Positions 28,293 through 43,112 of a stretch of DNA of 64,000 bases are shown here, one piece after another; the first letter of the stretch is position 1; each line of letters begins with the position of its first letter. The notes under the pieces were generated by a model, which was not told the DNA's origin, did not search any database, and saw only the letters and a program-made list of their open reading frames with translations. A program made the position numbers and the translations under genes. The stretch lies in assembly GCF_017921815.1 (NCBI RefSeq), contig NZ_JAGEMM010000001.1, forward strand, positions 744,001-808,000, in the 5' to 3' direction. This DNA comes from Microvirga antarctica (GTDB lineage: Bacteria > Pseudomonadota > Alphaproteobacteria > Rhizobiales > Beijerinckiaceae).

Positions 28293-28335
28293 AATGTACC
28301 TGCTTTGTTCTCAAGAGCAAGTTCTTTTTTTGTTC
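28293..28335 (-). promoter_or_regulatory. recA promoter with alphaproteobacterial LexA (SOS) box
   Basis: GTTC at 28321-28324, seven T residues, and GTTC at 28332-28335 exactly fit the alphaproteobacterial LexA site GTTC-N7-GTTC. On the minus strand it is followed by a likely -35 (TTGCTC, 28315-28320) and, after 16 bases, a -10 (TACATT, 28293-28298). The -35 and -10 calls are inferences; the box is read directly. Confidence 0.8.
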
Positions 28336-28340
28336 TCGTT
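28327..28340 (+). repeat. Target site duplication, left copy
   Basis: TTTTTGTTCTCGTT abuts the left end of the element (GGGATATAGCG begins at 28341). The identical 14 bases follow its right end at 43099. The copy overlaps the proximal half of the recA LexA box. Confidence 0.92.
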
Positions 28341-28530
28341 GGGATATAGCGATCGTTCGGCTGAGCCGCATTTTAGGCACCAGCTGAGCCGGAACTATCC
28401 TCCGCGCCAAGGTCTCGACTGCGGACCTGACCTTTTTCGGCGAGTGCCGTCGTCATCGGCTTCTCTCCGCGGAGAACCCTCCCAAGGGAGGGACTCGGAG
28501 CTGCTTCGCCAAGGGCGTTCCGGCTAACGA
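28341..28530 (+). repeat. Left terminal inverted repeat of the casposon
   Basis: It matches the reverse complement of the right end: 26 of the first 29 bases agree, starting GGGATATAGCGAT. Homology continues with gaps to about 28530, where it corresponds to the 3' coding end of polB. TGAGCCG occurs twice (28362-28368, 28385-28391), 23 bases apart, as in the right repeat. Confidence 0.88.
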
Positions 28531-28535
28531 AGAGT
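28425..28535 (-). pseudogene. Decayed copy of polB 3' end inside left terminal repeat
   Basis: Minus-strand translation reads SRNAL, then [18 protein letters not shown], close to RNAL and LGRVLSGEKPMTKALAEK at the C-terminus of the element's polymerase. The frame then slips relative to polB, so it is not functional. It shows that the terminal repeat extends into coding sequence. Confidence 0.75.
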
Positions 28536-28797
28536 GTGCGGAGCTGCGTGACCGCCAGCGCTTTAGTATGAACGTCGGTCGTCAGACGCCGATCGTCGCC
28601 TACGACCGCGCATTCCAGGTGCGACTCGCCGACACAATCCAGCGCCTGCGCCTGGAGCGGCACTGGAACGGGCGATGCTGCATTGCGCCCGCCTACGCGA
28701 TTAGGCTGGGGGGGGCATGCGGCAACCGTCTAAAACCGTCTTGAGAAACGGGCCAAAATGGCCATAAGTAGGCTTTGATTTGAACGGGGGCCAAGCC

Positions 28798-28971
28798 ATG
28801 CAAAGCATGTCGGCGAAGGAGGCCAAGTACGGCTTCGGACGTTTGATCGACCTGGCTCGCGTCGAACCGGTGTTGGTCGCGAAGCATGGTCGTCCAGTCG
28901 TCGTGGTGATGTCAGTTGAGGAATACGAGAGATTGAAAACAGCGAAGTTGGCGGCGAAGCCAGGAAATTGA
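28798..28971 (+). CDS. Phd/YefM-type antitoxin, no toxin partner seen
   Basis: The 57-residue protein has the Phd/YefM N-terminal fold: SMSAKEAKYGFGRLIDLARV, then PVLVAKHGRPVVVVMSVEEYERL. Such proteins bind their own promoter and neutralise a RelE- or Doc-type toxin. None follows: after a 14-codon frame (28971-29015) comes hsdR. It may be an orphan or act as a regulator of the restriction operon. ATG 28798 is chosen over an upstream TTG at 28780. Confidence 0.75.
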   Translation: MQSMSAKEAKYGFGRLIDLARVEPVLVAKHGRPVVVVMSVEEYERLKTAKLAAKPGN

Positions 28972-29024
28972 TGAAGAGCAAGACGACCCAGCCCGCTGGC
29001 GATAAAGAAAACTGAGCTGCATAA

Positions 29025-32000
29025 ATGGCAATGATCACACCCGAACGCGATCTTGAGGAGGCCTTGGTCTCAAAGCTGAAGGACCTCAAGTACGAATACC
29101 GCCCCGATATCCGAGATCGCGCCACACTGGAGCGAAACTTCCGTGAGAAGTTTGAAAGCCTGAATCGGGTTACTCTCACCGAAGGCGAATTTCAGAGGCT
29201 ACTCGACGAGATCGTCACTCCAGACGTTTTCACTGCTGCCCGAACACTTCGCGAGCGCAATAGCTTCACCCGTGATGACGGCACGCCGCTCAACTACACA
29301 CTCGTCAACATCAAGGACTGGTGCAAGAATTCCTTCGAGGTGGTCAACCAGCTTCGTATCAACACGGACAACAGCCATCATCGGTACGATGTCATTCTGC
29401 TGATCAACGGCGTACCGGTCGTTCAGATCGAACTAAAAACCCTCGGCATCAGCCCGCGTCGTGCCATGGAGCAGATCGTCGAATACAAAAACGACCTTGG
29501 AAACGGCTACACAAAGACGATCTTGTGCTTTCTGCAGCTCTTTATCGTCAGCAACCGCGATCGAACATTCTATTTCGCGAACAACAATGCACGCCAATTC
29601 ACCTTCAATGCCGAAGAGCGCTTTTTGCCGGTCTACGAGTTTGCCGATGTAGACAACAAGAAGATCGTCCACCTCGATAGCTTTGCCGAGACTTTCCTCG
29701 TCAAGTGCACTCTCGGCCAGACGATCAGCCGTTATATGGTTCTGGTCGCAAGCGAGCAGAAGCTCCTGATGATGCGGCCGTATCAGATCTACGCGGTGAA
29801 GGCGATTGTCGACTCCATCGCGCAAGACTGCGGCAATGGCTACATCTGGCACACCACCGGCAGCGGCAAGACGCTGACTTCCTTCAAGGCGTCAACGCTG
29901 CTGAAGGACAATCCGGACATCGAGAAGTGCCTCTTCGTCGTGGACCGAAAGGACCTCGATCGGCAGACGCGCGAGGAGTTCAACAAGTTCCAGGAAGGTT
30001 GCGTTGAGGAAAACACCAACACCGCATCCCTCGTGCGCCGTCTTGTTTCAGATGACTACGCCGACAAGGTCATCGTCTGCACGATTCAGAAGCTCGGCCT
30101 CGCGCTTGACGAGAACAGCAAGCGCAACAAGCAGCAGAAGAAGGACGGCAAGAAGTCATTCAAGGAACAGCTTGAGCCCCTTCGCGACAAACGAATCGCT
30201 TTGATCTTCGACGAATGCCATCGGTCACAGTTCGGCGAAAACCATAAGGCCATCAAGGAGTTCTTCCCGCGGGCGCAGCTCTTCGGCTTCACCGGAACGC
30301 CCATCTTCGATCAGAACGCCGCGCAGCAGAAAATCGAGGACACCCAGGCCAGTATGAAGACGACGGAAGACCTCTTCCAGAAGCGGCTTCATACCTACAC
30401 GATCACGCATGCCATCGAGGACGGAAACGTCCTTCGGTTCCATGTCGACTACTTCAAGCCGCAGGGCAAGACCCTGCCCAAGCCGGGCGAACCGCTGGCC
30501 AAGCGGGCGGTCATCGAGGCGATCCTATCCAAGCACGATGCGGCCACCGGTCAGCGCCGGTTCAACGCTTTGCTCGCCACATCGTCGATCAATGACGCCA
30601 TCGAATACCACCGCCTGTTCGCCGAGATGCATGCGGAGAAGCAAGTCGCTGACCCGGATTTCAAGCCTCTGAACATCGCCTGCGTCTTCTCGCCGCCCGC
30701 CGAGGGCGATCCTGATGTGAGGCAGATCCAGGAAGACCTGCCGCAGGAGAAGGAGGACAACGCTGTCGAGCCGGAGAAGAAGAAGGAGGCCCTAAAGGCC
30801 ATCCTCGCCGACTACAACGCCCACTACGGCACCAACCACAAGATCGGAGAGTTCGACCTGTATTATCAGGACGTGCAGAAGCGCATCAAAGACCAGCAAT
30901 GGCCGGATGCCGACTTGCGCAAGGCTTACCCCAACCAGCCAAACCACAAGATCGACATCACGATCGTGGTGGACATGCTGCTCACCGGCTTTGACTCGAA
31001 GTTCCTGAACACCCTCTACGTCGACAAGAACCTGAAGCATCACGGCCTGATCCAGGCCTTCTCGCGCACGAACCGGGTGCTGAACGCCACCAAGCCCTAT
31101 GGCAATATCCTCGACTTTCGCCAACAGCAGGCGGCCGTCGATACCGCCATCGCCCTATTCTCGGGCGAGGCTGCTGCCGAAAAGGCCCGCGAAATCTGGC
31201 TGGTGGATAAGGCCCCTGTGGTCATCCAGAAACTGGAAACTGCGGTGCAGAAGCTAGACGCTTTCATGAAGTCGCAAGGCCTCGATTGCGCCCCGGAAGG
31301 GGTGCCCAACCTCAAGGGCGACGCGGCGCGCGCGGCCTTCATCGAGCACTTCAAGGAGGTCCAACGCCTCAAGACCCAGCTTGACCAGTACACAGATTTG
31401 ACCCCGGAAAACGCCGCAGTGATCGAACGGGTTCTGCCGCGCGACAATCTGCTTGGGTTCCGCGGTGCCTATCTGGAAACGGCCCAGCGCCTTCGTGCCC
31501 AGCAGAGCAAGGGCCAGGATCAGGGCGACGGAAAGCCCAGCCAGGATGCCGACCAGCTTGATTTCGAGTTCGTCCTCTTCGCCTCGGCCGTCATTGACTA
31601 TGACTACATCATGGGCCTGATCGCCCGCTTTTCCGAGGCGACGCCCGGCAAACAGAAGATGAGCCGCGAGGAGCTAATCGGCCTGATCCAGTCCGACGCC
31701 AAGTTCATGGACGAGCGTGAGGACATCGCCGCCTACATCGCCACGCTGAAGGCGGGCGAGGGTCTGAGCGAGAAGGCCATCCGCGAGGGCTATAGCCGCT
31801 TCAAGGCCGAGAAGAACGCGGCTGAGCTGGCGGGCATTGCGGGCAAGCACGGCCTTGCCGCCGAGACGCTTCATGGGTTCGTCGATGGCATCCTGCAACG
31901 GATGATCTTTGATGGCGAGGCGCTGACCGATCTGATGGAGCCCCTCGGCCTGAATTGGAAGGCGCGCCGGGTGAAGGAATTGGACCTGATGGCCGACCTA

Positions 32001-32066
32001 ATGCCGCTTCTGTTGAAGCGCGCCGGTGGCCGCGAGATTTCGGGGCTCAGCGCTTATGAACAGTAA
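29025..32066 (+). CDS. hsdR: Type I restriction enzyme, R subunit
   Basis: The 1,013-residue motor and nuclease subunit carries the nuclease motif as YDVILL with D122 and QIELKT with E136 and K138. It has Walker A TTGSGKT (277-283), DECH at 396-399, and later helicase motifs (FGFTGTPIF; MLLTGFDSK; LIQAFSRTNR). With HsdS and HsdM it would cut unmodified DNA after translocation. The length is normal. hsdS begins 11 bases before its stop, so the genes are translationally coupled. Confidence 0.95.
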   Translation: MAMITPERDLEEALVSKLKDLKYEYRPDIRDRATLERNFREKFESLNRVTLTEGEFQRLLDEIVTPDVFTAARTLRERNSFTRDDGTPLNYTLVNIKDWCKNSFEVVNQLRINTDNSHHRYDVILLINGVPVVQIELKTLGISPRRAMEQIVEYKNDLGNGYTKTILCFLQLFIVSNRDRTFYFANNNARQFTFNAEERFLPVYEFADVDNKKIVHLDSFAETFLVKCTLGQTISRYMVLVASEQKLLMMRPYQIYAVKAIVDSIAQDCGNGYIWHTTGSGKTLTSFKASTLLKDNPDIEKCLFVVDRKDLDRQTREEFNKFQEGCVEENTNTASLVRRLVSDDYADKVIVCTIQKLGLALDENSKRNKQQKKDGKKSFKEQLEPLRDKRIALIFDECHRSQFGENHKAIKEFFPRAQLFGFTGTPIFDQNAAQQKIEDTQASMKTTEDLFQKRLHTYTITHAIEDGNVLRFHVDYFKPQGKTLPKPGEPLAKRAVIEAILSKHDAATGQRRFNALLATSSINDAIEYHRLFAEMHAEKQVADPDFKPLNIACVFSPPAEGDPDVRQIQEDLPQEKEDNAVEPEKKKEALKAILADYNAHYGTNHKIGEFDLYYQDVQKRIKDQQWPDADLRKAYPNQPNHKIDITIVVDMLLTGFDSKFLNTLYVDKNLKHHGLIQAFSRTNRVLNATKPYGNILDFRQQQAAVDTAIALFSGEAAAEKAREIWLVDKAPVVIQKLETAVQKLDAFMKSQGLDCAPEGVPNLKGDAARAAFIEHFKEVQRLKTQLDQYTDLTPENAAVIERVLPRDNLLGFRGAYLETAQRLRAQQSKGQDQGDGKPSQDADQLDFEFVLFASAVIDYDYIMGLIARFSEATPGKQKMSREELIGLIQSDAKFMDEREDIAAYIATLKAGEGLSEKAIREGYSRFKAEKNAAELAGIAGKHGLAAETLHGFVDGILQRMIFDGEALTDLMEPLGLNWKARRVKELDLMADLMPLLLKRAGGREISGLSAYEQ

Positions 32067-33384
32067 GACGACGTCCACTGCCACCAAGCTTGGCGGAAGC
32101 TCCACATTCACGCCCAAGAGGCGCTTCCCGGAGTTTCAACACGCGCCGGCATGGGAGCCAGTGAGCCTTCGAAAGGCGTCTGTTCCGGTTGACCAGCGCG
32201 TGGGCGAGCGGAAGTTGACCCCAGTCAGCATTTCCGCAGGAATAGGATTCGTCCCACAAGCCGAGAAGTTCGGCAGGGATATCTCGGGAAACCAGTATCA
32301 GCTTTACACGCTGGTTCGGGATGGCGACTTTGTTTTCAACAAGGGGAACTCGCTCAAATTCCCTCAGGGCTGCATATACCTGCTAGAGGGATGGGGGCGG
32401 GTCGCTGCCCCAAATGTCTTCATCGCCTTCCGCCTGAAGGAAGGCTATTCGAACGGGTTCTTTCAGAACTGCTTTGAACAGAATCAGCACGGAAAGCAAC
32501 TCAAGAGGCATATCACCAGCGGCGCACGTAGCAACGGTTTGCTGAACATCAGCAAAGACACGTTCTTTGGCGTCGAAATTCCCACGCCAAGCCTGTTCGA
32601 GCAGGAAAAAATCGCCGACTGCCTGGCCTCTGCGGACGCGCTGATTGAGGCGCAGGCGCGGAAGGTGGAGGCGCTGAGGGCCCACAAGAGGGGCCTGATG
32701 CAGCAGCTATTCCCCCAGGAAGGCGAAACCCAACCCCGCCTCCGCTTCCCGCAGTTCGAGACTGCGGGGGATTGGGAGGAGATCCCGCTTTCTGCACTGG
32801 TGAGCGCGCTGAATGCTGGTGTAAGCGTCGATTCGGGTGACCGACCCGCGATGAGTCATGAAATTGGTGTGTTAAAGACGAGTGCCGTTAAGAATGGAAT
32901 TTTCAAACCGCTTGAGAACAAGGTTGTATTTGATGATGAAGAAGTCAACCGCGTAAGAGAGCCAGTGCGCGCAGATACAATCATCATTAGTCGCATGAAT
33001 ACACCTGCTCTCGTTGGGGCTAACGCATACGTAAAGGACGACTGTCCGAATATCTTTCTTCCTGATCGCCTCTGGGCTGCTAAGCCAAGATCCGGGACGT
33101 ATATGCGGTTTGTTGCGCTAATGCTGGGCTCAGATATGGGACGAGCATCCCTATCGAATCTGGCAGGAGGTAGTTCTGGCTCCATGAAGAACATCTCCAA
33201 ACCAAGGGTCCTCGAACTCTTGGTCATGGCTCCTTCACTTCCCGAACAGCAACGCATTGCCGACTGCCTCACCTCCCTCGACGACCTCATCGCCGCCGAG
33301 ACCCAAAAGCTCAACACACTGCGAACCCATAAGAAGGGGCTGATGCAGCAGCTTTTCCCAACGGTGGAGGGGGATGACGTATGA
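32056..33384 (+). CDS. hsdS: Type I restriction-modification, specificity subunit
   Basis: The 442-residue protein has the two-fold HsdS plan: two target recognition domains, each followed by a conserved helical spacer (LFEQEKIADCLASADALIEA with LRAHKRGLMQQLFPQ; LPEQQRIADCLTSLDDLIAA with LRTHKKGLMQQLFP). The near-identical spacers are the halves of the circular arrangement. The second recognition domain (about 32,800-33,200) is visibly more A/T-rich, as usual for exchangeable domains. ATG 32056 overlaps the hsdR end; the stop overlaps the next gene as ATGA. The target sequence cannot be predicted. Confidence 0.93.
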   Translation: MNSKTTSTATKLGGSSTFTPKRRFPEFQHAPAWEPVSLRKASVPVDQRVGERKLTPVSISAGIGFVPQAEKFGRDISGNQYQLYTLVRDGDFVFNKGNSLKFPQGCIYLLEGWGRVAAPNVFIAFRLKEGYSNGFFQNCFEQNQHGKQLKRHITSGARSNGLLNISKDTFFGVEIPTPSLFEQEKIADCLASADALIEAQARKVEALRAHKRGLMQQLFPQEGETQPRLRFPQFETAGDWEEIPLSALVSALNAGVSVDSGDRPAMSHEIGVLKTSAVKNGIFKPLENKVVFDDEEVNRVREPVRADTIIISRMNTPALVGANAYVKDDCPNIFLPDRLWAAKPRSGTYMRFVALMLGSDMGRASLSNLAGGSSGSMKNISKPRVLELLVMAPSLPEQQRIADCLTSLDDLIAAETQKLNTLRTHKKGLMQQLFPTVEGDDV

Positions 33385-34589
33385 GCGCCATCCGTACCTA
33401 TCAGAGCTTGGGCAAGCTTGTGACACGGCTACGGGACGATCTGAACGACGCTGATCTCGTGCTGCTTTACGCCTACAACCGCACCGGCAAGACGCGTCTG
33501 TCGATGGAGTTCAAAGACGCAGGCAAGCGCAAGACGAGGAAGAACCCGACCGGGACGCCTGACACCCTTTATTTCAACGCCTTCACAGAAGATCTTTTTG
33601 TCTGGGAAAACGACCTTGAAGGTGACAGCGTCCGCCGTCTACAGCTGAACGAGAAGTCCTCCTTCTTCAACGCTATGACCGAACTCGCGTTGGACGAAAC
33701 GATTGCCCAATATCTTTCCAGATACGCCGATTTCGATTTCGACTTCACCTACAAAGAGGTTCCGCAGGGCAAAGAGACCGTCTCCAAACCAGATTTCGTG
33801 AGCTTCGAAAAAGACGGTGTGCCCAACATCAAGGTGTCGCGCGGCGAGCAGAACATATTTATCTGGTGCGTGTTCATGGCGATCTGCGAGCGGATGCTCG
33901 ATGGTCATGACTCTTATCAGGGAAAGAAGTACCTCTACATCGACGACCCCATCTCATCGCTGGATGACAACAACGCGATCTCCGTCGCCTGCGATTTGGT
34001 CAAGCTCCTCCGTCGGGCGGCCACGCGGAATGACGGGACCGGAGCGCCCGCCCCGATCAAGGTGATCTTCTCTTCCCATCACGCTTTGTTCTTCAACGTG
34101 ATGTGCAACGAAGTCGGCAGGCGGATCGAGGGCGAGGGGAAAGTCACCCACAAGCGCTATTTCCTGCACCGCCCCAATGGAGAGGGTGCCTACACGCTAC
34201 AGGCGACCGAGGATACGCCGTTCTTTCACCACGTCGCCACCTTAGCCGAATTGCAGCGTGCCGCCGATCCCATCAAGGGAAAGCTCTACACATTCCACTT
34301 CAATGCCCTGCGCAGCGTCATGGAGAAGACGGCCTCTTTCTTCGGGCATCCAAGCATGGCCTTCTGCCTCAAGGCGCTCGACAACGAGGAAGACCGGGCG
34401 CTGTTCAACCGTGCCCTGAACCTGCTGAGCCACGGTGCCTATGCCATCAATGAACCCACTGAAATGGGCGAGGACAACAAGGCACTTTTCCGCCGCATCC
34501 TGAGCGAGTTCATCAAACGGTTTGAGTTTGCCCTACCGGGAATTATTCCTGCCCACGCCAAAGCCCTGGCGCCTGCGCCCGCCCCTTAG
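33381..34589 (+). CDS. prrC: PrrC-like ATPase, probable anticodon nuclease linked to R-M system
   Basis: The 402-residue protein has an ABC/AAA-13 type ATPase: degenerate Walker A YAYNRTGKTRL (residues 31-40), signature-like SRGEQNIFIW (153-162), Walker B KYLYIDDPISSLDD (183-196) and H-loop IFSSHHALFF. The C-terminal part shows R311, E315 and H351. This matches in order and spacing the Arg-x3-Glu...His triad of the anticodon nuclease PrrC (R320, E324, H356; 396 residues). PrrC is silenced by its type I R-M host and cuts tRNA-Lys when a phage disarms that enzyme. Here the gene sits between hsdS and hsdM with an ATGA overlap. Nuclease activity is inferred. Confidence 0.7.
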   Translation: MSAIRTYQSLGKLVTRLRDDLNDADLVLLYAYNRTGKTRLSMEFKDAGKRKTRKNPTGTPDTLYFNAFTEDLFVWENDLEGDSVRRLQLNEKSSFFNAMTELALDETIAQYLSRYADFDFDFTYKEVPQGKETVSKPDFVSFEKDGVPNIKVSRGEQNIFIWCVFMAICERMLDGHDSYQGKKYLYIDDPISSLDDNNAISVACDLVKLLRRAATRNDGTGAPAPIKVIFSSHHALFFNVMCNEVGRRIEGEGKVTHKRYFLHRPNGEGAYTLQATEDTPFFHHVATLAELQRAADPIKGKLYTFHFNALRSVMEKTASFFGHPSMAFCLKALDNEEDRALFNRALNLLSHGAYAINEPTEMGEDNKALFRRILSEFIKRFEFALPGIIPAHAKALAPAPAP

Positions 34590-34603
34590 GAAGCACCTGC
34601 ACA

Positions 34604-36226
34604 ATGAACGACCAAAACAAAAAGCAACTGGGCAAAACGCTCTGGAACATCGCCGATACACTTCGCGGCGCCATGAACGCGGACGATTTCCGCGACTACA
34701 TGCTGTCTTTCCTGTTCCTGCGCTACCTCTCCGACAATTATGAGATGGCCGCGAAGAAGGAGCTCGGGCGCGACTACCCAGATCCCAACGCAATCGGCAA
34801 CGGTGGGCGCTCGCCCCTCTCTGTTTGGTACGCGCAGAACCCCGATGACGTGGTGGCTTTTGAAAAGCAGATGCGCCTCAAGGCGCACTACGTCATCAAG
34901 CCGGAACACCTGTGGACCAGTATCGCCCATATGGCGCGCACCCAGAACGACGAACTATTGAACACCCTGCAGGCGGGCTTCAAATACATCGAGAACGAGT
35001 CGTTCCAGAGCACGTTCGGTGGCCTGTTCTCGGAAATCAATCTCGGCTCTGAAAAGCTCGGCCGGACATACGCTGATCGCAACGCCAAACTCTGCGCCAT
35101 CATCACCGAGATTGCCAAAGGGCTCGCCGACTTCTCCGCGGATGTGGATGCGCTTGGCGACGCCTACGAATATCTGATCGGCCAATTCGCCGCCGGTTCG
35201 GGCAAGAAGGCGGGCGAGTTCTATACCCCGCAGCAGGTGTCAGACATCCTTTCCGCTATCGTGACGCTCGACAGCCAGGAGCCCGCAACCGGTAAGAAAG
35301 AACGGCTCGCCAGCGTGCTCGATTTCGCGTGCGGCTCTGGCTCGCTACTGCTGAATGTGCGCAAGCGTATGGGGCCGCACGGCATCGGCAGAATCTACGG
35401 GCAAGAAAAGAACATTACCACCTACAACCTCGCGCGCATGAACATGCTGCTGCACGGCGTAAAAGACACGGAGTTCGAAATCTACCACGGCGACACGCTG
35501 ACCAACGACTGGGACATCCTGCGCGAGTTGAATCCCGCCAAGAAGCCCTCCTTCGATGCCGTCGTGGCCAACCCGCCCTTCAGCTTGCGCTGGGAACCGA
35601 CTGAGGCGATGGGCGATGATGTTCGGTTCAAGAACTATGGCCTGGCACCCAAGTCGGCTGCGGACTTTGCCTTCCTGCTGCACGGTTTGCACTATCTAAA
35701 GGATGAGGGCGTGATGGCCATCATCCTCCCCCACGGGGTGCTGTTCAGAGGCGGGGCGGAAGAGCGCATCCGCACTAAGCTGCTGAAGGATGGCCACATC
35801 GACACGGTCATCGGCCTGCCTGCGAACCTCTTCTATTCGACGGGCATCCCGGTCTGCATCCTTGTTCTGAAGAAGTGCAAGAAGCCCGACGATGTGCTCT
35901 TCATCAACGCGGCGGAGCACTTTGCGAAGGGCAAGCGCCAGAACCAGCTGACCGATGATCACATCGCCAAAATCATCGAAACCTACCAATTCCGAAAGGA
36001 AGAGGAGCGCTACTCCAAGCGCGTGAGCATGGAGCGAATTGCTGAGGAGGGCTTCAACCTCAACATCTCTCGATACATCAGCACCGCCGTCGGCGAGGAA
36101 GAGATTGATCTGTCGGCCACCCAGGGCGAACTGGTTGAGCTTCAAAAGCAGATCCAGGAGGCAACTTCGAAGCACAACGCCTTCTTGGAGGAACTCGGGC
36201 TTTCTCTGTTGCCGGGGGCCGAATGA
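34604..36226 (+). CDS. hsdM: Type I restriction-modification, N6-adenine methyltransferase subunit
   Basis: The 540-residue protein has the HsdM N-terminal helical domain (LGKTLWNIADTLRGAMNADD, then YMLSFLFLRYLSDNY), the SAM motif VLDFACGSGSLLL (from residue 238) and the catalytic NPPF (323-326) in VVANPPFSLRW. It methylates adenine with HsdS. It starts 14 bases after the PrrC-like gene. The order R-S-PrrC-M is unlike the E. coli prr locus (M-S-PrrC-R), but all parts are intact. Confidence 0.95.
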   Translation: MNDQNKKQLGKTLWNIADTLRGAMNADDFRDYMLSFLFLRYLSDNYEMAAKKELGRDYPDPNAIGNGGRSPLSVWYAQNPDDVVAFEKQMRLKAHYVIKPEHLWTSIAHMARTQNDELLNTLQAGFKYIENESFQSTFGGLFSEINLGSEKLGRTYADRNAKLCAIITEIAKGLADFSADVDALGDAYEYLIGQFAAGSGKKAGEFYTPQQVSDILSAIVTLDSQEPATGKKERLASVLDFACGSGSLLLNVRKRMGPHGIGRIYGQEKNITTYNLARMNMLLHGVKDTEFEIYHGDTLTNDWDILRELNPAKKPSFDAVVANPPFSLRWEPTEAMGDDVRFKNYGLAPKSAADFAFLLHGLHYLKDEGVMAIILPHGVLFRGGAEERIRTKLLKDGHIDTVIGLPANLFYSTGIPVCILVLKKCKKPDDVLFINAAEHFAKGKRQNQLTDDHIAKIIETYQFRKEEERYSKRVSMERIAEEGFNLNISRYISTAVGEEEIDLSATQGELVELQKQIQEATSKHNAFLEELGLSLLPGAE

Positions 36227-36384
36227 GCTCCGCCATACCCACGATTGTGCCACCCCGAGAGCTAGGGAAGCCAGAATGTTGCGCTTTGCTGACAATGCCG
36301 CCTGCGGTTCGCGTGCATTACTTCGCCTGATTTGAACCATCGTGGTTATGATCGGCCTGAAAAACGGACACGGCGGACACAAGC

Positions 36385-36416
36385 AAAAGCCTCGCTGGCG
36401 AGAGCCAAGCGGGGCT
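36385..36416 (-). terminator. Terminator-like hairpin downstream of the tRNA fragment
   Basis: On the minus strand AGCCCCGCTTGGC pairs with GCCAGCGAGGCT (one bulge, one G-T), followed by TTTT. It lies 33 bases after the tRNA CCA end, the place of a natural tRNA terminator. It could also stop hsdM readthrough from the other side. Confidence 0.6.
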
Positions 36417-36448
36417 CTACACAAACTCTCGAATTAGCTTGTGCATTT

Positions 36449-36497
36449 TGGTTGCTGGAACAGGATTTGAACCTGCGGCCTTCAGGTTATGAGCCTG
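36449..36497 (-). pseudogene. 3' fragment of an initiator tRNA-Met (CAT) gene
   Basis: The minus strand holds a Met anticodon loop CTCATAA closed by CAGG/CCTG, then GAAGG, a T arm with loop TTCAAAT (typical of initiator tRNA) and an acceptor 3' strand ending GCAACCA. The 5' half (acceptor 5' strand, D arm) is missing; homology stops near 36497. It is therefore not a working tRNA but the kind of fragment left by integration at a tRNA 3' end. Confidence 0.8.
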
Positions 36498-36526
36498 GGT
36501 TGCGGAGCGACGCGAAGTATGAATGT

Positions 36527-37663
36527 TCAACGCTGGCTGACGACCGTGCTGACAAGTGCTCTGGCCAGTTGCGGCGTAAGCCGCACTACGCCGTCCGCGC
36601 GGAGCACAAAATCAGCCGGGCTAAAAACATGCGATTTCACGAAATCAAGCACCTTCCGATCAACCTTCGGCCGCTCCGGCTCCATCAGATCGAAAATGAA
36701 TTTCGACGAGCCATCGGTGCCTTCATGCATAATTCCGATCGTCGGATCATAGCCCTCAGTAATTGCCTTGAGCCGCACCTCTGTTTCGAGAACCGAATAG
36801 GCGTAATTCAACATCGCGTTGACGGGGTGGCCCGCATTTCGATTTCCAGCGAGGTGATAGGGCGATGAACGTTGGCCCAAGACGGCCCAATTGTCGGGAA
36901 TTGGCCTGCGACTAGTGCCACGCCATTTTATTGGAATTCCTTGCCAGCTCCGGAAATAGGATGCGGCGCAGTTTGCCTCCAGCACACGCAAGTCAGTGAT
37001 TGATTGCGGTGGATTTTCCTCCAGCCGCGTCAGGGCTGCATAGGCGGATTTCATTGCAAGTTCCCATTTATCCGATTTTCGCACCACCTTTTCGAGGGTG
37101 ATGATGCTCGCCTCGATTTTCCCGGTAATGATCCCACACGAAAACTGCATCCGGCGTTCGAAAATTTCACGGGTTTCGAGTTGCCAGCGAACACGGTGCG
37201 AATTGGCGGAATAACCGGATGCTCCGGAAATGCAGACGACCTCGCCCTTCCAATTAATTTGAGCGAATGCGACTTTTTGTTCGGACAGCCAAGCCAGAAC
37301 ATCAAAAGAAATGCTTCCGTTCCCGTCCAATACGATAATTTGCTCCGGGAGCGATAAATCGCCCTTAAAATAGCGATACGTCTGGCGGGTCTGGGGATAA
37401 TGCGTAAAACCATTTCGGATTGTCAGGGCTCCACCTTCAATCCGGAGCGAGATACCATGTCCGGCGAGTGTGAGCGCCCGGGGCGCTTTTGCCCGCTTCG
37501 TTCGTCGTAAGGACGTTTTTTCCAACCGGTCTTGCCACATGCCCGAGCGAAGCGCCCAAACCTCGTCGTCCGGTTCGATTTCTTCGATGCTTGAATTCGC
37601 TATTTCCGCAAACCGTAGATAGGTGGATTTGGCAGGAGCATCTTGCCGAGACCGAGCCGTCAT
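36527..37663 (-). CDS. cas1: Solo Cas1 homologue, probable casposase (integrase)
   Basis: The 378-residue protein has the Cas1 N-terminal beta domain (LTLAGHGISLRIEGGALTI, then YFKGDLSLPEQIIVLDGNG and SISFDVLAWLSEQKVAFAQI) and the catalytic helical domain. The metal ligands are present: E229 in VLEANCAASYFRSW, H313 in TIGIMHEGTD, and D325 in FDLMEPERPKVD (also E328, D335). NAMLNYAYSVLETEV is also typical. Cas1 makes new CRISPR spacers by integration; in casposons it inserts the whole element. With no Cas2, effector or CRISPR array nearby but a PolB and terminal repeats, the second role fits. An N-terminal extension of about 60 basic residues may bind DNA. Confidence 0.92.
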   Translation of the reverse strand: MTARSRQDAPAKSTYLRFAEIANSSIEEIEPDDEVWALRSGMWQDRLEKTSLRRTKRAKAPRALTLAGHGISLRIEGGALTIRNGFTHYPQTRQTYRYFKGDLSLPEQIIVLDGNGSISFDVLAWLSEQKVAFAQINWKGEVVCISGASGYSANSHRVRWQLETREIFERRMQFSCGIITGKIEASIITLEKVVRKSDKWELAMKSAYAALTRLEENPPQSITDLRVLEANCAASYFRSWQGIPIKWRGTSRRPIPDNWAVLGQRSSPYHLAGNRNAGHPVNAMLNYAYSVLETEVRLKAITEGYDPTIGIMHEGTDGSSKFIFDLMEPERPKVDRKVLDFVKSHVFSPADFVLRADGVVRLTPQLARALVSTVVSQR

Positions 37664-37687
37664 ATTCAGCCCTTTGCAGTGAATTTT

Positions 37688-38809
37688 CTAAAGTCCATTT
37701 CTAGCTTTTTCTACGGCTGATATCCATCGTTTCACGCTGATGGGGTCGCGCAATGCCGCGCGAATTTCCTTTTTGCTGAATACAATTTTGAAGCGGTGGT
37801 CATCCCGTCCCAGCCGTTGAATTTCGCGAACATCGCAAAGCATTTTGCGACTTTCCATCGCCATTGCCGCAATTTCTTCTGATGACAATATTGCGCCGGG
37901 GACGATGCGAAGACGGAGCATGACAAGTACGATCCCATCACCAAACCCATCTGGGGCCTTTCTCGCGATCCATGCGGACAATCGGATCCCACCAGCTTTA
38001 TCCCCAAATACCCATTGAAACACCTCAAAGAGTGCCAAGACGAGCTCGAGTACATTTGCCGCGTCACTGCGGGCTTGAGCTATTTCTGTGGCCGGGGCGT
38101 CCGCGGCCGAGGCCAATGTCCCCAATGCAAGCGCACTTGATAAATTTTGTAGAACGGACGGGAGCTCCTCAAGCCATTGGGGGCTATTCCCCATGATATT
38201 CAGTCGTTCAGACTCTCCAAGGTCGAATGCCTTGATTATAGCTGTTTCGTCACCCGACCGCGTATCGCCTGTAACTGGAGTTTCAAAGCTTTCGAACGTT
38301 CTAGTTGCCGTTTCGATTAGAACACGGAAAAGCATCGGCAATTCGGAGCTGTCCAGTCGCCGCACAATTCGTGAAAATACAAAGTTGTCTAATGGAAAAT
38401 GCGCGGCCTTGTCTGCCAGGGTTTCCGCGTCCTCATCGCGGTCCGACCTCGCGACCATCCATGGTAAAATTTTGAGGGTACGGTCCGCCCATTCCCCAAG
38501 TCGCTTGAGCCGGGGACGCCAATGCCGCTCCGCGACCGCAAATCCCTGTCGCCATAAATGTAATCCGACATAGTCGACCCGGTTCTTTCTGAGGAACAGG
38601 GACTGCGCCGCCTTAATCTGCGCGCAAGTGCCAGATGGGTAAAGGACCACGCTTCCCCGGTAGGCTTCTGCCACCTGCTTGACGGGTGGCAGCAATCCCT
38701 CTCTTCGCCATCGATTAACCTGATCTGGGGTGACACCCGTCTCTTGGAGACAGGCGTCAACCTGATCCTGCGTCTCCCATTGCCTGCTCTCCGCCTCCAA
38801 GTCCGCCAT
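37688..38809 (-). CDS. MerR-like DNA-binding protein of unknown function
   Basis: The 373-residue protein begins with a MerR-type winged helix (residues about 15-70: TGVTPDQVNRWRREGLLPPV, then VVLYPSGTCAQIKAAQSLFL). It continues with a long helical region of no known family. It is 24 bases upstream of cas1 on the same strand, so the two are probably one transcript and it may regulate the element or assist Cas1. ATG 38809 is preferred; the frame is open to 38986 but would overlap the divergent gene start at 38888. The 78 bases between the divergent starts should hold both promoters. Confidence 0.65.
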   Translation of the reverse strand: MADLEAESRQWETQDQVDACLQETGVTPDQVNRWRREGLLPPVKQVAEAYRGSVVLYPSGTCAQIKAAQSLFLRKNRVDYVGLHLWRQGFAVAERHWRPRLKRLGEWADRTLKILPWMVARSDRDEDAETLADKAAHFPLDNFVFSRIVRRLDSSELPMLFRVLIETATRTFESFETPVTGDTRSGDETAIIKAFDLGESERLNIMGNSPQWLEELPSVLQNLSSALALGTLASAADAPATEIAQARSDAANVLELVLALFEVFQWVFGDKAGGIRLSAWIARKAPDGFGDGIVLVMLRLRIVPGAILSSEEIAAMAMESRKMLCDVREIQRLGRDDHRFKIVFSKKEIRAALRDPISVKRWISAVEKARNGL

Positions 38810-38887
38810 CAAGAGCCCTACGCCAAACGCCGATTTCCAGGATTCGCGCGCCCGATTGTCCAGCTCCTTCGAATCGGGAGCCGGACA

Positions 38888-39466
38888 ATGGCAAGCAAGA
38901 GAATACGCGACTTCAAGAAAGAGTATCAGGCCCGCATCGCCCGTGGCCTGGCAAAAGGGAAAAGTCGGGCGCAGTCCCGCGGACACGCTAGGGCGAATGA
39001 TCTGCCTTCAGGTACGGCCGGGACGATCGACGCCGAGAGCCCGCTGGAAAAGGCCCTAAAACTGATGAAGCAGGGCATGTCGCAAAAGCAAGCGGCGAAG
39101 GCTGTAGGCGTTTCGGCTGAAAAGCTCCGAAGGTATCAAAAGCAGAATACGACCTCCGTTCGCCAGGGACGGCGATGGGTGATCTCCGATAGCCGTCCGG
39201 TCTCCATGGTCATGGCGACGCGCGGGAAACTGAAAACAGTCACTCTTCCCCGTGACGCTGGCGGCGACATCGGTCGGCACTGGGTGGCCATTAACAAGTT
39301 CTTGGAAACTAATGATCCGTCCCACCTCAAGCCTTTCGTTGGCCGAGGCCTGCGCGATAATCAGAGTCTGCTCCATCCATTCGAGACCCGCCCAAACATC
39401 TTGCGGAAGCTCGATAGTGTGGGTGAGCTTTCGTTTGTCGATATCTACCGCCAGACGGTGCAGTGA
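38888..39466 (+). CDS. Helix-turn-helix protein of the casposon
   Basis: The 192-residue protein has a very basic N-terminus (MASKRIRDFKKEYQARIARG) and a helix-turn-helix at about residues 55-87 (LMKQGMSQKQAAKAVGVSAE, then KLRRYQKQ), followed by a beta-rich part. I do not recognise the family. It is divergent from the MerR-like gene and heads the rightward transcript with the unknown protein and polB, so it is a candidate regulator of transposition genes. Confidence 0.6.
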   Translation: MASKRIRDFKKEYQARIARGLAKGKSRAQSRGHARANDLPSGTAGTIDAESPLEKALKLMKQGMSQKQAAKAVGVSAEKLRRYQKQNTTSVRQGRRWVISDSRPVSMVMATRGKLKTVTLPRDAGGDIGRHWVAINKFLETNDPSHLKPFVGRGLRDNQSLLHPFETRPNILRKLDSVGELSFVDIYRQTVQ

Positions 39467-39476
39467 GAGCACCGTC

Positions 39477-39842
39477 ATGGATAAGTTTGAACGATACATG
39501 AGCCGTGCGAGAGCATGCCGCCGGGCCGGAAGGGCTCAGCCCAGCGCGCTTTGGGGGTTCGAGAGTTGGGCAAGTGACCGGCGAGAATCCCATCACGTTG
39601 CCCGAAAGAAATATGGCGACGCCACGTTGGACATCCCAGTCAGCATGCACCGCGAGTTGACGCGCCGCCAAATGGAAGAACATCCTGAAGAGGGGCCTGA
39701 TTCTTCAAATCCAACGGAAAGACTGGGCCGTCACCTTCTGGGCTTGTCGGATATTTTCGAGTGTTTTGCTGACTTCTTTCGCTATCTCGGCGAAACGCTA
39801 ATCACCGCTGCCAAAAATGGGGCGGCATCAAGTGGGAGATAA
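39477..39842 (+). CDS. Small protein of unknown function upstream of polB
   Basis: The 121-residue frame starts at ATG 39477, ten bases after the previous stop, and ends three bases before polB. The N-terminus is basic (MDKFERYMSRARACRRAGRA) and the C-terminus has an amphipathic helical run (LGLSDIFECFADFFRYLGET). There is no known family. Tight spacing on both sides supports it as a real member of the polB operon. Confidence 0.55.
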   Translation: MDKFERYMSRARACRRAGRAQPSALWGFESWASDRRESHHVARKKYGDATLDIPVSMHRELTRRQMEEHPEEGPDSSNPTERLGRHLLGLSDIFECFADFFRYLGETLITAAKNGAASSGR

Positions 39843-39845
39843 AAT

Positions 39846-42800
39846 ATGTCAAGCGATCGTGTCTTTGCAAATGACATGGTCGAGCCGATCGATCGACAAA
39901 TCATTTCCCTCCGGGCCTACGTGACGCGGCCTCCGAAAGAGGCCAAGCGGAGCCGCCAAAGTACCGATCGGCTCCCCCGGACCCCAGCGAGCGAATGGGT
40001 CCTCGTCTTCGACTGCGAAACCCGGACCACGCCCGATCAGCGATTGCGATTCGGTGCGTACCAGCTTCGATATCGAGGCCAGATCTGGGAACGAGGGGTG
40101 TTTTACGAACCAGCCGTGCTCTCCCTGGATGAAGAAACCCTGCTTCGGAACTTTATTGGAAACGACCCACCGGGTCCTGACGGCGAACGCGTCTGCTTCA
40201 GAACGCGGTCTGAATTTGTCGAGGAAGTATTTTATCAGTCCGCCTTCGACGTCGGCGCGCAGATTGTCGGATTCAATTTGCCCTTTGATCTCTCACGCCT
40301 AGCCATTCGCCATAGCAGCGCACGCGGGTCGATGCGCGGCGGCTTCAGCCTCGAATTGGCCGGATCGCGCGAGCACATCGTCGTCAAACACCTTTCACAA
40401 CGGGCTGCGTTGATCAGGTTCGCTGGCAAACGCCTTACAAGGGGCGGGAAAGGGGACTTCAACCCGGACGAAAACCATGAGGTCGATAGAGAGGCGGGGC
40501 CGGATCGCGGCTATTTCGTCGACGTAAAGACCCTGGCAGCAGCATTAACAAGCGGGTCGCATTCGCTGGACTCGCTTTGCAGACTTCTTGAAGTACCAAC
40601 CGCAAAGGAGGCGTCAGACGACCACGGTGGGCCATTGACGGACGAATATGTACGCTATGCGTTGCGCGACGTGCAAACGACCTGGGAGTGCTTTGCCAAA
40701 CTGGCCAAACGGTTTTCGACCTTCGGTCTGGTTGGGACCGGTCTCTACGACCTCTACAGCGAGGCCAGTCTCGGCAAGGCCTATCTCAAAACAATGGGCA
40801 TCAAGCCGTGGCGGGACGTTCAGCCCGACTTTCCACCGCATCTCATCGGCCATATTCTGAGCGCCTATTACGGCGGCCGATCAGAGGTCCACATTCGCCG
40901 GGAAATTGTACCGGTGATCCACTGCGACTTCCTGTCGATGTATCCCACTGTCTGCACTCTCATGTCTTTATGGACATTCGTCAGGGCGGATGGGATCAAA
41001 TCCGCGGACAGGACCAAGGAAATCCGGCAATTGGTGGCTACGCCACGCGCTCAGTTAGTCGAACGACTTCGCCACAAGGAGGGATGGCAGGGGCTCACGG
41101 CGCTCGTCCAGGTTCGACCCAAGCGAAATCTGTCCCCCGTCCGGGCTGAATATGCGGACGCCGAGACCGCAACCATCGGATTGAATTTCCTCACATCGGA
41201 CGAACCAATGTGGTTCACCCTCGCCGATGTCTTGGCCTCACGGATTCTGACCGGCGAAACACCGGAAATCGTTTCGGCGATTCAGTTTGAGCCCTCTCAA
41301 CAGCAAACTGATCTCATGACGATCAAGGTTGCGGGGCGGGAAATTGACCCCGCATCCGATGATTTTTACCAGCGCCTCATCATCCACCGGAATGCGCTGA
41401 AGGCGCAATTGAAATCGGCCTCGGACACCGAAAGGCCTGCGCTCAAAGCTGATGAACAGGCGATCAAGGTTCTCGCCAATGCGACGAGTTACGGCATATT
41501 CGTTGAGCTGAACGGGGAGGAATATAACGCGGCGAAGCCCATGTTGGCTTATGGCGCTGGCCCAAAACCGCTGAAATTCAGTTCAAAGAAGTTTGAAAAG
41601 CCCGGTCGATATTTTCATCCCTTGCTCGGCACGCTGATTACAGGCGCGGCGCGTTTGATGCTCGCGCTGGCCGAACATCAGGTCGCCGAACAGAAGCTCG
41701 ATTGGGCCTTTTGCGATACCGACAGTATCGCCATCGCCAATCGATGTGGATTGCCGCCAGACGAGTTTAAATCAAGAGCGCTCCTGGTTCGCGATTGGTT
41801 CAAGGATCTCAATCCCTACGATGAAGACCGCTCCATTCTGCAACTGGAAGATGTGAACTTCCCGGTTGGAAAAGCCGGGGATTTGGCATCCCTTGAACCG
41901 CCGCTTTGTCTCGCTGTCTCTGCAAAGCGCTACGTTCTTTTCAACCGGAACGGAACCGCCAACATCATTCGCAAGGCGTCCGGCCACGGCCTCGGCCATT
42001 TGTTGGCCCCATACGACGAGCTCGCAGTCCAGCGCCGGGCTCGCATCGAGCGGATTGGTGTTCCCCTTTGGCAAGAGGACCTTTGGCAGGAGATCATCCG
42101 CGCAGCGCAGTCGGATACACCCGATCAGACCCGATTCATGGAAATGACCGGGTTCGATGCCCCTGCTGGCAGCCAGTACGCAGCGACTACGCCGGAACTG
42201 CTGTCTTGGTTTAAGGGATACAATGAGCGCCAGCCCGAGGGGCATCGCGTCTTTCCATTCGGCTTTCTGCTTTCCCTGCAAGCGAAGTCCCGGCTTGAAA
42301 TGGCCAAGGACCAACCCGAAGGTTTATCCGATCAACTTTGGCGCATGCGCGAGCCACGTCCTGCCGCACCATTTTTCAAACGGTCAACTGATGCGAAGGA
42401 CCACGCCTTTGATCGTGATCTGGATATCCCCATTCCCGCGTCCTGGCTCAAATCCCACGGGCGCAGCCTGATCCGATATCATATGCATCCTGAGACGAAA
42501 TTCCGGGGTGGTGAAGCTGATCAGCGGGGACCGCTCACCCGCCGTCATGTGTTCGCTCTGAGCCATCGATCGATTGGCAAAGAAAGCGATAGCATCGAAG
42601 AGAATGAGTTTATCGGAGAAGATCTAGCCCAGCTCAAGCAGCCCCTGCTTTCAACAGATCGCCAAAAGCTGTTGGAATTCATTTCCAGCACGCAGGAAAA
42701 GCGCCGGATCAGCGATCGTGCTTTGATCGATAAAGCTAACGTTTCTCATCACACGTTGCGAAAGCTCCGCCAAGGGGAGAGCATTGATAATCGGTCGCTG

Positions 42801-43034
42801 GAGGGTCTGATTCGGGCTGCAAATTATTTCGCGAGCGAGGCCGATTTCAGCAAGGCGGCCAACGAGATAGCCCTCGAAGGCCTCAGGCGCCTCCACACCC
42901 GCTTTGGCGGTCGGAACGCCTTGGCGAAGCATCTCCGCGTTTCAGGTCCCTACCTTGGGCGGGTTCTCAGCGGAGAAAAGCCGATGACCAAGGCACTAGC
43001 CGAAAAGGTCAAATCCGCAGTTCGGGACATTTGA
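39846..43034 (+). CDS. polB: Family B DNA polymerase of the casposon
   Basis: The 1,062-residue protein has all family B motifs: Exo I FDCET (D56, E58), Exo II GFNLPFD (N144, D148), Exo III YALRD (Y271, D275), Pol A DFLSMYP (D361), Pol B KVLANATSYG (K541-G550) and Pol C CDTDS (D624, D626). It should copy the element DNA with 3'-5' proofreading. After the core comes an extra C-terminal region of about 400 residues, ending in two HTH-like segments (ALIDKANVSHHTLRKLRQGE; NALAKHLRVSGPYLGRVLSG). It is longer than most mobile-element PolBs. GGGAG precedes ATG 39846, and its 3' end forms part of the right terminal repeat. Confidence 0.92.
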   Translation: MSSDRVFANDMVEPIDRQIISLRAYVTRPPKEAKRSRQSTDRLPRTPASEWVLVFDCETRTTPDQRLRFGAYQLRYRGQIWERGVFYEPAVLSLDEETLLRNFIGNDPPGPDGERVCFRTRSEFVEEVFYQSAFDVGAQIVGFNLPFDLSRLAIRHSSARGSMRGGFSLELAGSREHIVVKHLSQRAALIRFAGKRLTRGGKGDFNPDENHEVDREAGPDRGYFVDVKTLAAALTSGSHSLDSLCRLLEVPTAKEASDDHGGPLTDEYVRYALRDVQTTWECFAKLAKRFSTFGLVGTGLYDLYSEASLGKAYLKTMGIKPWRDVQPDFPPHLIGHILSAYYGGRSEVHIRREIVPVIHCDFLSMYPTVCTLMSLWTFVRADGIKSADRTKEIRQLVATPRAQLVERLRHKEGWQGLTALVQVRPKRNLSPVRAEYADAETATIGLNFLTSDEPMWFTLADVLASRILTGETPEIVSAIQFEPSQQQTDLMTIKVAGREIDPASDDFYQRLIIHRNALKAQLKSASDTERPALKADEQAIKVLANATSYGIFVELNGEEYNAAKPMLAYGAGPKPLKFSSKKFEKPGRYFHPLLGTLITGAARLMLALAEHQVAEQKLDWAFCDTDSIAIANRCGLPPDEFKSRALLVRDWFKDLNPYDEDRSILQLEDVNFPVGKAGDLASLEPPLCLAVSAKRYVLFNRNGTANIIRKASGHGLGHLLAPYDELAVQRRARIERIGVPLWQEDLWQEIIRAAQSDTPDQTRFMEMTGFDAPAGSQYAATTPELLSWFKGYNERQPEGHRVFPFGFLLSLQAKSRLEMAKDQPEGLSDQLWRMREPRPAAPFFKRSTDAKDHAFDRDLDIPIPASWLKSHGRSLIRYHMHPETKFRGGEADQRGPLTRRHVFALSHRSIGKESDSIEENEFIGEDLAQLKQPLLSTDRQKLLEFISSTQEKRRISDRALIDKANVSHHTLRKLRQGESIDNRSLEGLIRAANYFASEADFSKAANEIALEGLRRLHTRFGGRNALAKHLRVSGPYLGRVLSGEKPMTKALAEKVKSAVRDI

Positions 43035-43098
43035 GCAGAGGTTTTTCCGGCTCAGGTGGTGCCCAGACCGCGGCTCACGCGAACTATCGCTATATCCC
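42915..43098 (-). repeat. Right terminal inverted repeat of the casposon
   Basis: On the minus strand it begins GGGATATAGCGAT and mirrors the left end. It holds TGAGCCG twice (43071-43077, 43048-43054; 23 bases apart). The inner part is the coding end of polB, whose stop is at 43032-43034. Confidence 0.88.
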
Positions 43099-43112
43099 TT
43101 TTTGTTCTCGTT
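43099..43112 (+). repeat. Target site duplication, right copy
   Basis: TTTTTGTTCTCGTT follows the terminal CCC of the element and is identical to 28327-28340. It lacks the outer GTTC of the LexA box, so only the recA-side copy keeps a full SOS site. Confidence 0.92.

Follow-up and report, generated by a model that had tools for sequence, protein, structure and literature searches.

A probable tRNA-fMet attachment-site scar between the cargo and core of a composite casposon in Microvirga antarctica

The window, a 64,000-nucleotide stretch of a Microvirga antarctica contig, raises the question of how a 3′ piece of an initiator tRNA came to lie inside a casposon, between its restriction-modification cargo and its casposase gene. 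The original prediction placed the piece between hsdM and the cas1 stop codon, which is where we find it (hsdM ends at 36226 and the stop codon begins at 36527), and offered two origins: either the cargo had arrived on a separate tRNA-targeted island, or the casposon had itself once sat at a tRNA-fMet gene. The first is the better of the two. We consider it probable that the fragment is the att-site scar of a tyrosine-integrase island that carried hsdR-hsdS-prrC-hsdM and had integrated at tRNA-fMet.

The fragment does lie within a casposon, as had been claimed. The element is complete, 14.76 kb long (28341–43098) and situated beside recA (Table 1), with inverted repeats of about 216 nt that are 78% alike and a perfect 14-bp target-site duplication. 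Its core comprises Cas1, an HTH-like protein and a family B polymerase (PolB), and its cargo is hsdR-hsdS-prrC-hsdM, so that the genes of a PrrC-type restriction-modification system stand together. Among the features by which casposons are recognized, a casposase-type Cas1, a family B polymerase, terminal inverted repeats and a target duplication of 14–15 bp are all present, and an HNH nuclease, which is common in casposons and not required, had no match among the element proteins searched. The best structural match of Cas1 is 6opm, the Methanosarcina mazei casposase. PolB matched Pfam DNA_pol_B below threshold only, and its homologues, 37–65% identical, accompany cas1 in related elements. Upstream of hsdR, a small open reading frame (28798–28971), partly shared with the cargo relative L201, has the appearance of a putative Phd/YefM-type antitoxin.

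Table 1. Features of the casposon and its surroundings (window coordinates unless another locus is named)
Feature	Position	Strand	Similarity
recA-operator casposon ends	window 28321–28340; L056 15676 onward; L091 about 6120; L063 about 13812
Left 14-bp target-site duplication, TTTTTGTTCTCGTT, overlapping the SOS box upstream of recA	28327–28340
Left inverted repeat with decayed copy of the PolB 3′ end	28341–28514
hsdR, type I restriction subunit (cargo)	29025–32066	+
hsdS, specificity subunit (cargo)	32026–33384	+
PrrC-type anticodon nuclease (cargo)	33381–34589	+	PDLC02360, E=1.3e-126
hsdM, type I methyltransferase (cargo)	34604–36226	+
Cargo tail after hsdM, 88% identical to G036; homology ends just before the tRNA fragment	36227–36438
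Terminator-like hairpin, then T-rich tail; end of the cargo, also in G036 without tRNA	36387–36417	-
10 nt between the tRNA CCA and the start of the sequence shared with G036	36439–36448	-
Initiator-tRNA 3′ fragment (positions 29–77, anticodon stem to CCA; proposed att-site scar)	36449–36497	-
Spacer of 29 nt from the tRNA fragment to the cas1 stop	36498–36526
Cas1 casposase	36527–37663	-	Pfam Cas1, 9e-35; best PDB match 6opm, 1.6e-19
Core protein with weak MerR/HTH-like similarity, conserved across related casposons	37688–38986	-
Divergent family B DNA polymerase (core), weak C-terminal HTH similarity	39846–43034	+	phrog_1907, 5e-11
Right inverted repeat; overlaps the 3′ end of PolB	42883–43098
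Right 14-bp target-site duplication, identical to the left	43099–43112

The ends of the element are informative about its assembly. A decayed PolB C-terminus is encoded in the left repeat (E=2e-10), as it is in the left repeat of a copy from the same genus (G036), which indicates that the left end was copied from a right end. The repeats measure 17–116 nt in relatives for which both ends are mapped, and in two small related casposons (L071, L072) the left repeat lies at most about 80 nt from the cas1 stop; in the window this ordinary left end is gone, and the tRNA fragment begins 29 nt past the stop codon. Since the 14-bp duplication is perfect, the whole composite moved as one unit, a reading that rests jointly on the inverted repeats, the duplication and the PolB remnant.

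Read on the minus strand from 36497 to 36449, the fragment is CAGGCTCATAACCTGAAGGCCGCAGGTTCAAATCCTGTTCCAGCAACCA and ends in GCAACCA. It is identical to tRNA-fMet positions 29–77 at 46 of 49 positions in G041 and at 45 of 49 in the genus consensus (four changed positions), and fMet genes from other families of the same order agree with it at up to 46/49. The closest match found, at 47/49, is the tRNA-fMet of the Komagataeibacter phages phiKX1 and phiKX2. A 29-mer taken from the fragment matched once in the window against 0.00 expected in shuffled sequence. The agreement is well beyond chance and identifies the fragment as the 3′ portion of an initiator tRNA of alphaproteobacterial type. The Rfam tRNA model scores it at 19 bits against a gathering score of 29 bits, and ARAGORN calls no tRNA there or anywhere in the window; it is therefore a fragment and not a gene. 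It probably has no present function. A search of the host draft assembly returned neither an intact fMet gene nor 5S rRNA. A GAAC-N7-GAAC motif resembling an SOS box occurs within the fragment (36458–36472), formed by the T loop and one change relative to the genus fMet; with four such motifs in 20 kb, it may be due to chance. Abutting the fragment, CTCCGCAACC at 36498–36510 resembles an fMet acceptor end; this may be a chance likeness or what is left of a further att copy. A candidate for a decayed second fMet copy at about 36318–36362 (GGTTCAAATC, TCATAACC and AATGCAC in order) was rejected, as 10–28 of 2000 shuffles equalled it and G036 lacks it.

The hairpin had been treated as one unit with the tRNA piece (36385–36497), and only part of that unit stands. 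A strong terminator-like hairpin with a T-rich tail does follow the fragment on the same strand, and a terminator scan recovered a weaker core at this position; the tRNA-derived part, however, covers 36449–36497 only. In G036, whose left repeat and cargo are 81–88% identical at the nucleotide level, homology continues past hsdM and through the hairpin and ends at 36438, 10 nt short of the tRNA CCA, with no tRNA beside the hairpin. The hairpin therefore travels with the cargo and marks its end. It offers no argument for a terminator from a host fMet gene, and its supposed role as companion of the tRNA gene finds no support. The fMet genes of the genus also have hairpins downstream, of different sequence. 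The casposon hairpin may still be a working terminator. G036 has no Cas1, and neither a right inverted repeat nor a target duplication was found when sought in that copy.

Where the cargo occurs elsewhere, it is repeatedly found in or beside tRNA attachment sites, which supports the earlier proposals that the fragment was left by integration at a tRNA 3′ end and that a separate island with a tRNA target had brought in the cargo. In G123, an intact tRNA-Thr stands on one side of the cargo and an exact 47-nt copy of its 3′ part, starting at tRNA position 32, on the other, with a tyrosine integrase near the far end, the one with the 47-nt repeat; the hsdM stop is 160 bp from the intact tRNA-Thr and faces it, the same facing as in the window. 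The viral contig L206 has prrC-hsdM, then an integrase and then an fMet 3′ fragment. Unlike the window fragment, this one is on the far side of the integrase and is directed away from hsdM. In a further viral contig, L207, a tRNA-Ser 3′ fragment is directed at hsdM from 0.4 kb away. All three tRNA pieces begin at or near the anticodon loop, one of the standard att positions (2083 of 3919 islands, PMC4383910). A provirus contig that carries another type I restriction-modification system also has an fMet 3′ fragment close to its edge (L294, 95–156), and the 5′ boundary of the window fragment lies within about 2 nt of those in L206 and L294.

When the T-arm/acceptor pattern was counted, the cargo loci (287 kb) yielded four tRNA 3′ fragments and the casposon loci (890 kb) one (Poisson P of about 0.0003, or 0.002 without the window; Fisher P 0.03 without the window), a comparison that few loci underlie. 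The single casposon-locus piece (L110) is unrelated, and none in those other 890 kb is fMet; the exact pattern was not found in viral contigs. Most cargo relatives (L200–L205, the plasmids pTM1 and p17, and G036) have no tRNA piece nearby, so the link between cargo and tRNA is a tendency and not a rule. By the usual marks of an island, the window has a tRNA 3′ fragment that starts at a recognized crossover site and no intact tRNA at the other end, so that no more than a relic of the island would be left. When a tyrosine integrase was sought with those of L206, G036 and Tistrella, the window gave no match.

The casposons themselves insert elsewhere. Among 13 mapped elements of the clade, the target sites are the recA operator or mostly palindromic, and none (0/13) is a tRNA. 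The duplications of L057, L069, L072, L074, L075, L084, L085, L087 and L088 are GC-rich palindromes that resemble terminator or REP-like hairpins. In the window, L056, L091 and L063, the element ends about 5–17 bp short of the recA LexA box (GAAC-N7-GAAC), on the upstream side of its first half-site; both duplications are mapped in two of these, the window and L056. The recA SOS operator thus looks like a recurrent casposon target. Relatives of the casposase were not found in viral contigs, and no close ones were found in plasmids.

These sites bear directly on the second origin originally proposed, in which the fragment would be a target-site relic of a casposase that once inserted at tRNA-fMet. 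Archaeal casposases use tRNA 3′ ends, the A. boonei enzyme recognizing the T-loop motif TCAAATC (PMC4046053, PMC6614799), and TCAAATC is present in the fragment. However, no inverted-repeat end abuts the fragment, no tRNA is targeted by the mapped clade, and a 49-nt half tRNA is not a target duplication, with no 14-bp repeat flanking it (best 9/14); we regard this origin as quite improbable. A relic of a phage- or prophage-borne tRNA-fMet gene, truncated at random, deserves somewhat more weight and is still unlikely. It would accord with the closest match being to the phages phiKX1 and phiKX2 and with the frequency of extra fMet genes in rhizobial prophages (PMC11476347, PMC12429752), but the truncation point nearly coincides with those of L206 and L294 and lies at a standard crossover site, where a random deletion need not end, and the phiKX2 tRNA is beside an integrase gene and may thus be an att site as well.

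It is less probable than either of these that the fragment is a functional element, acting as a tRNA-like decoy or regulator for PrrC or as a signal that ends cas1 and hsdM transcription. PrrC cuts tRNA-Lys, whereas the fragment is an initiator tRNA; moreover, its 5′ half is missing, it cannot fold as a tRNA, and the G036 cargo copy does without it. What speaks for a function is the presence of prrC in the same element, the hairpin beside the fragment and the ability of phage tRNAs to counter anticodon nucleases (PMC11555353). Least credible of all is an assembly artefact joining the fMet end of an rRNA operon to unrelated contigs. Although rRNA operons are absent from the draft and fMet is a frequent contig end in relatives, the junction is internal to a contig of 1.5 Mb. 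The half tRNA, moreover, is accompanied by neither rRNA nor 5′ sequence, and 4 of its 49 positions depart from the genus fMet.

The reading of the fragment as an att scar draws on what the fragment is and on its being cut at the anticodon stem, on its position exactly at the border of cargo and core, where G036 homology ends, and on the cargo relatives at tRNA sites together with the fragment rate. Against it, no integrase gene is left in the casposon, the cargo has neither an intact tRNA-fMet nor a second att copy beside it, most cargo relatives are without a tRNA piece, the L206 fragment is placed and oriented differently, and the junction of cargo, tRNA and cas1 is seen in one genome only. 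In the history we propose, an island with hsdR-hsdS-prrC-hsdM would have integrated at tRNA-fMet by crossover in the anticodon loop, leaving at one edge of the island the 3′ tRNA piece that runs from the anticodon loop to CCA. The cargo's position on the CCA side of the piece could reflect an att junction of two elements or an attP carried along. Casposon DNA would later have become attached to this edge at a point about 29 nt past the cas1 stop, with the island taking the place of its ordinary left end, and a second, inverted casposon right end would have come to lie on the hsdR side, as the PolB remnant in the left repeat suggests. The outer ends could then have acted as one unit, the casposase moving the 14.76-kb composite and its scar next to recA; the duplication demonstrates this unit move, and the order of the earlier steps is deduced.

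Casposons are proposed ancestors of CRISPR adaptation, and how they gain cargo is little known. The scar at the cargo/core boundary and the right-end-derived left end suggest a concrete, testable route, in which tyrosine-integrase islands are taken over by flanking casposon ends and defence cargo is freed from tRNA sites. The fragment, as an att scar, most likely records the joining of two mobile elements into one. More generally, and tentatively, casposons might act as composite transposons, in which two inverted ends of the same type capture and move the whole defence cargo of a tRNA island, att scar included, redistributing islands once tied to tRNA genes.

The type of scar is ordinary and already known, and its position inside a composite casposon is unusual; a limited literature search did not meet the combination. 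Islander-type islands in tRNA genes with att in the anticodon loop likewise have a boundary marked by a 3′ tRNA fragment from the anticodon region, and the cargo relative in G123 exemplifies them fully, since integrase, intact tRNA and exact fragment are all present there. In contrast, the window is without integrase, intact tRNA and second boundary, and the scar has moved inside another transposon. With the Family 3 bacterial casposons of Henriciella and Nitrosomonas the element has in common the casposase Cas1, PolB, inverted repeats and a 14-bp duplication, but it differs in a left end derived from a right end, in foreign tRNA-island cargo that replaces the ordinary left end, and in its recA-operator target. 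Matches in this group include Henriciella pelagia (L085) and Nitrosomonas (L067, L068). Finally, hsdR, hsdS, prrC and hsdM form one cluster as in type I systems of the EcoprrI/PrrC type, whereas here the cluster, in the order hsdR-hsdS-prrC-hsdM, is carried by a casposon.
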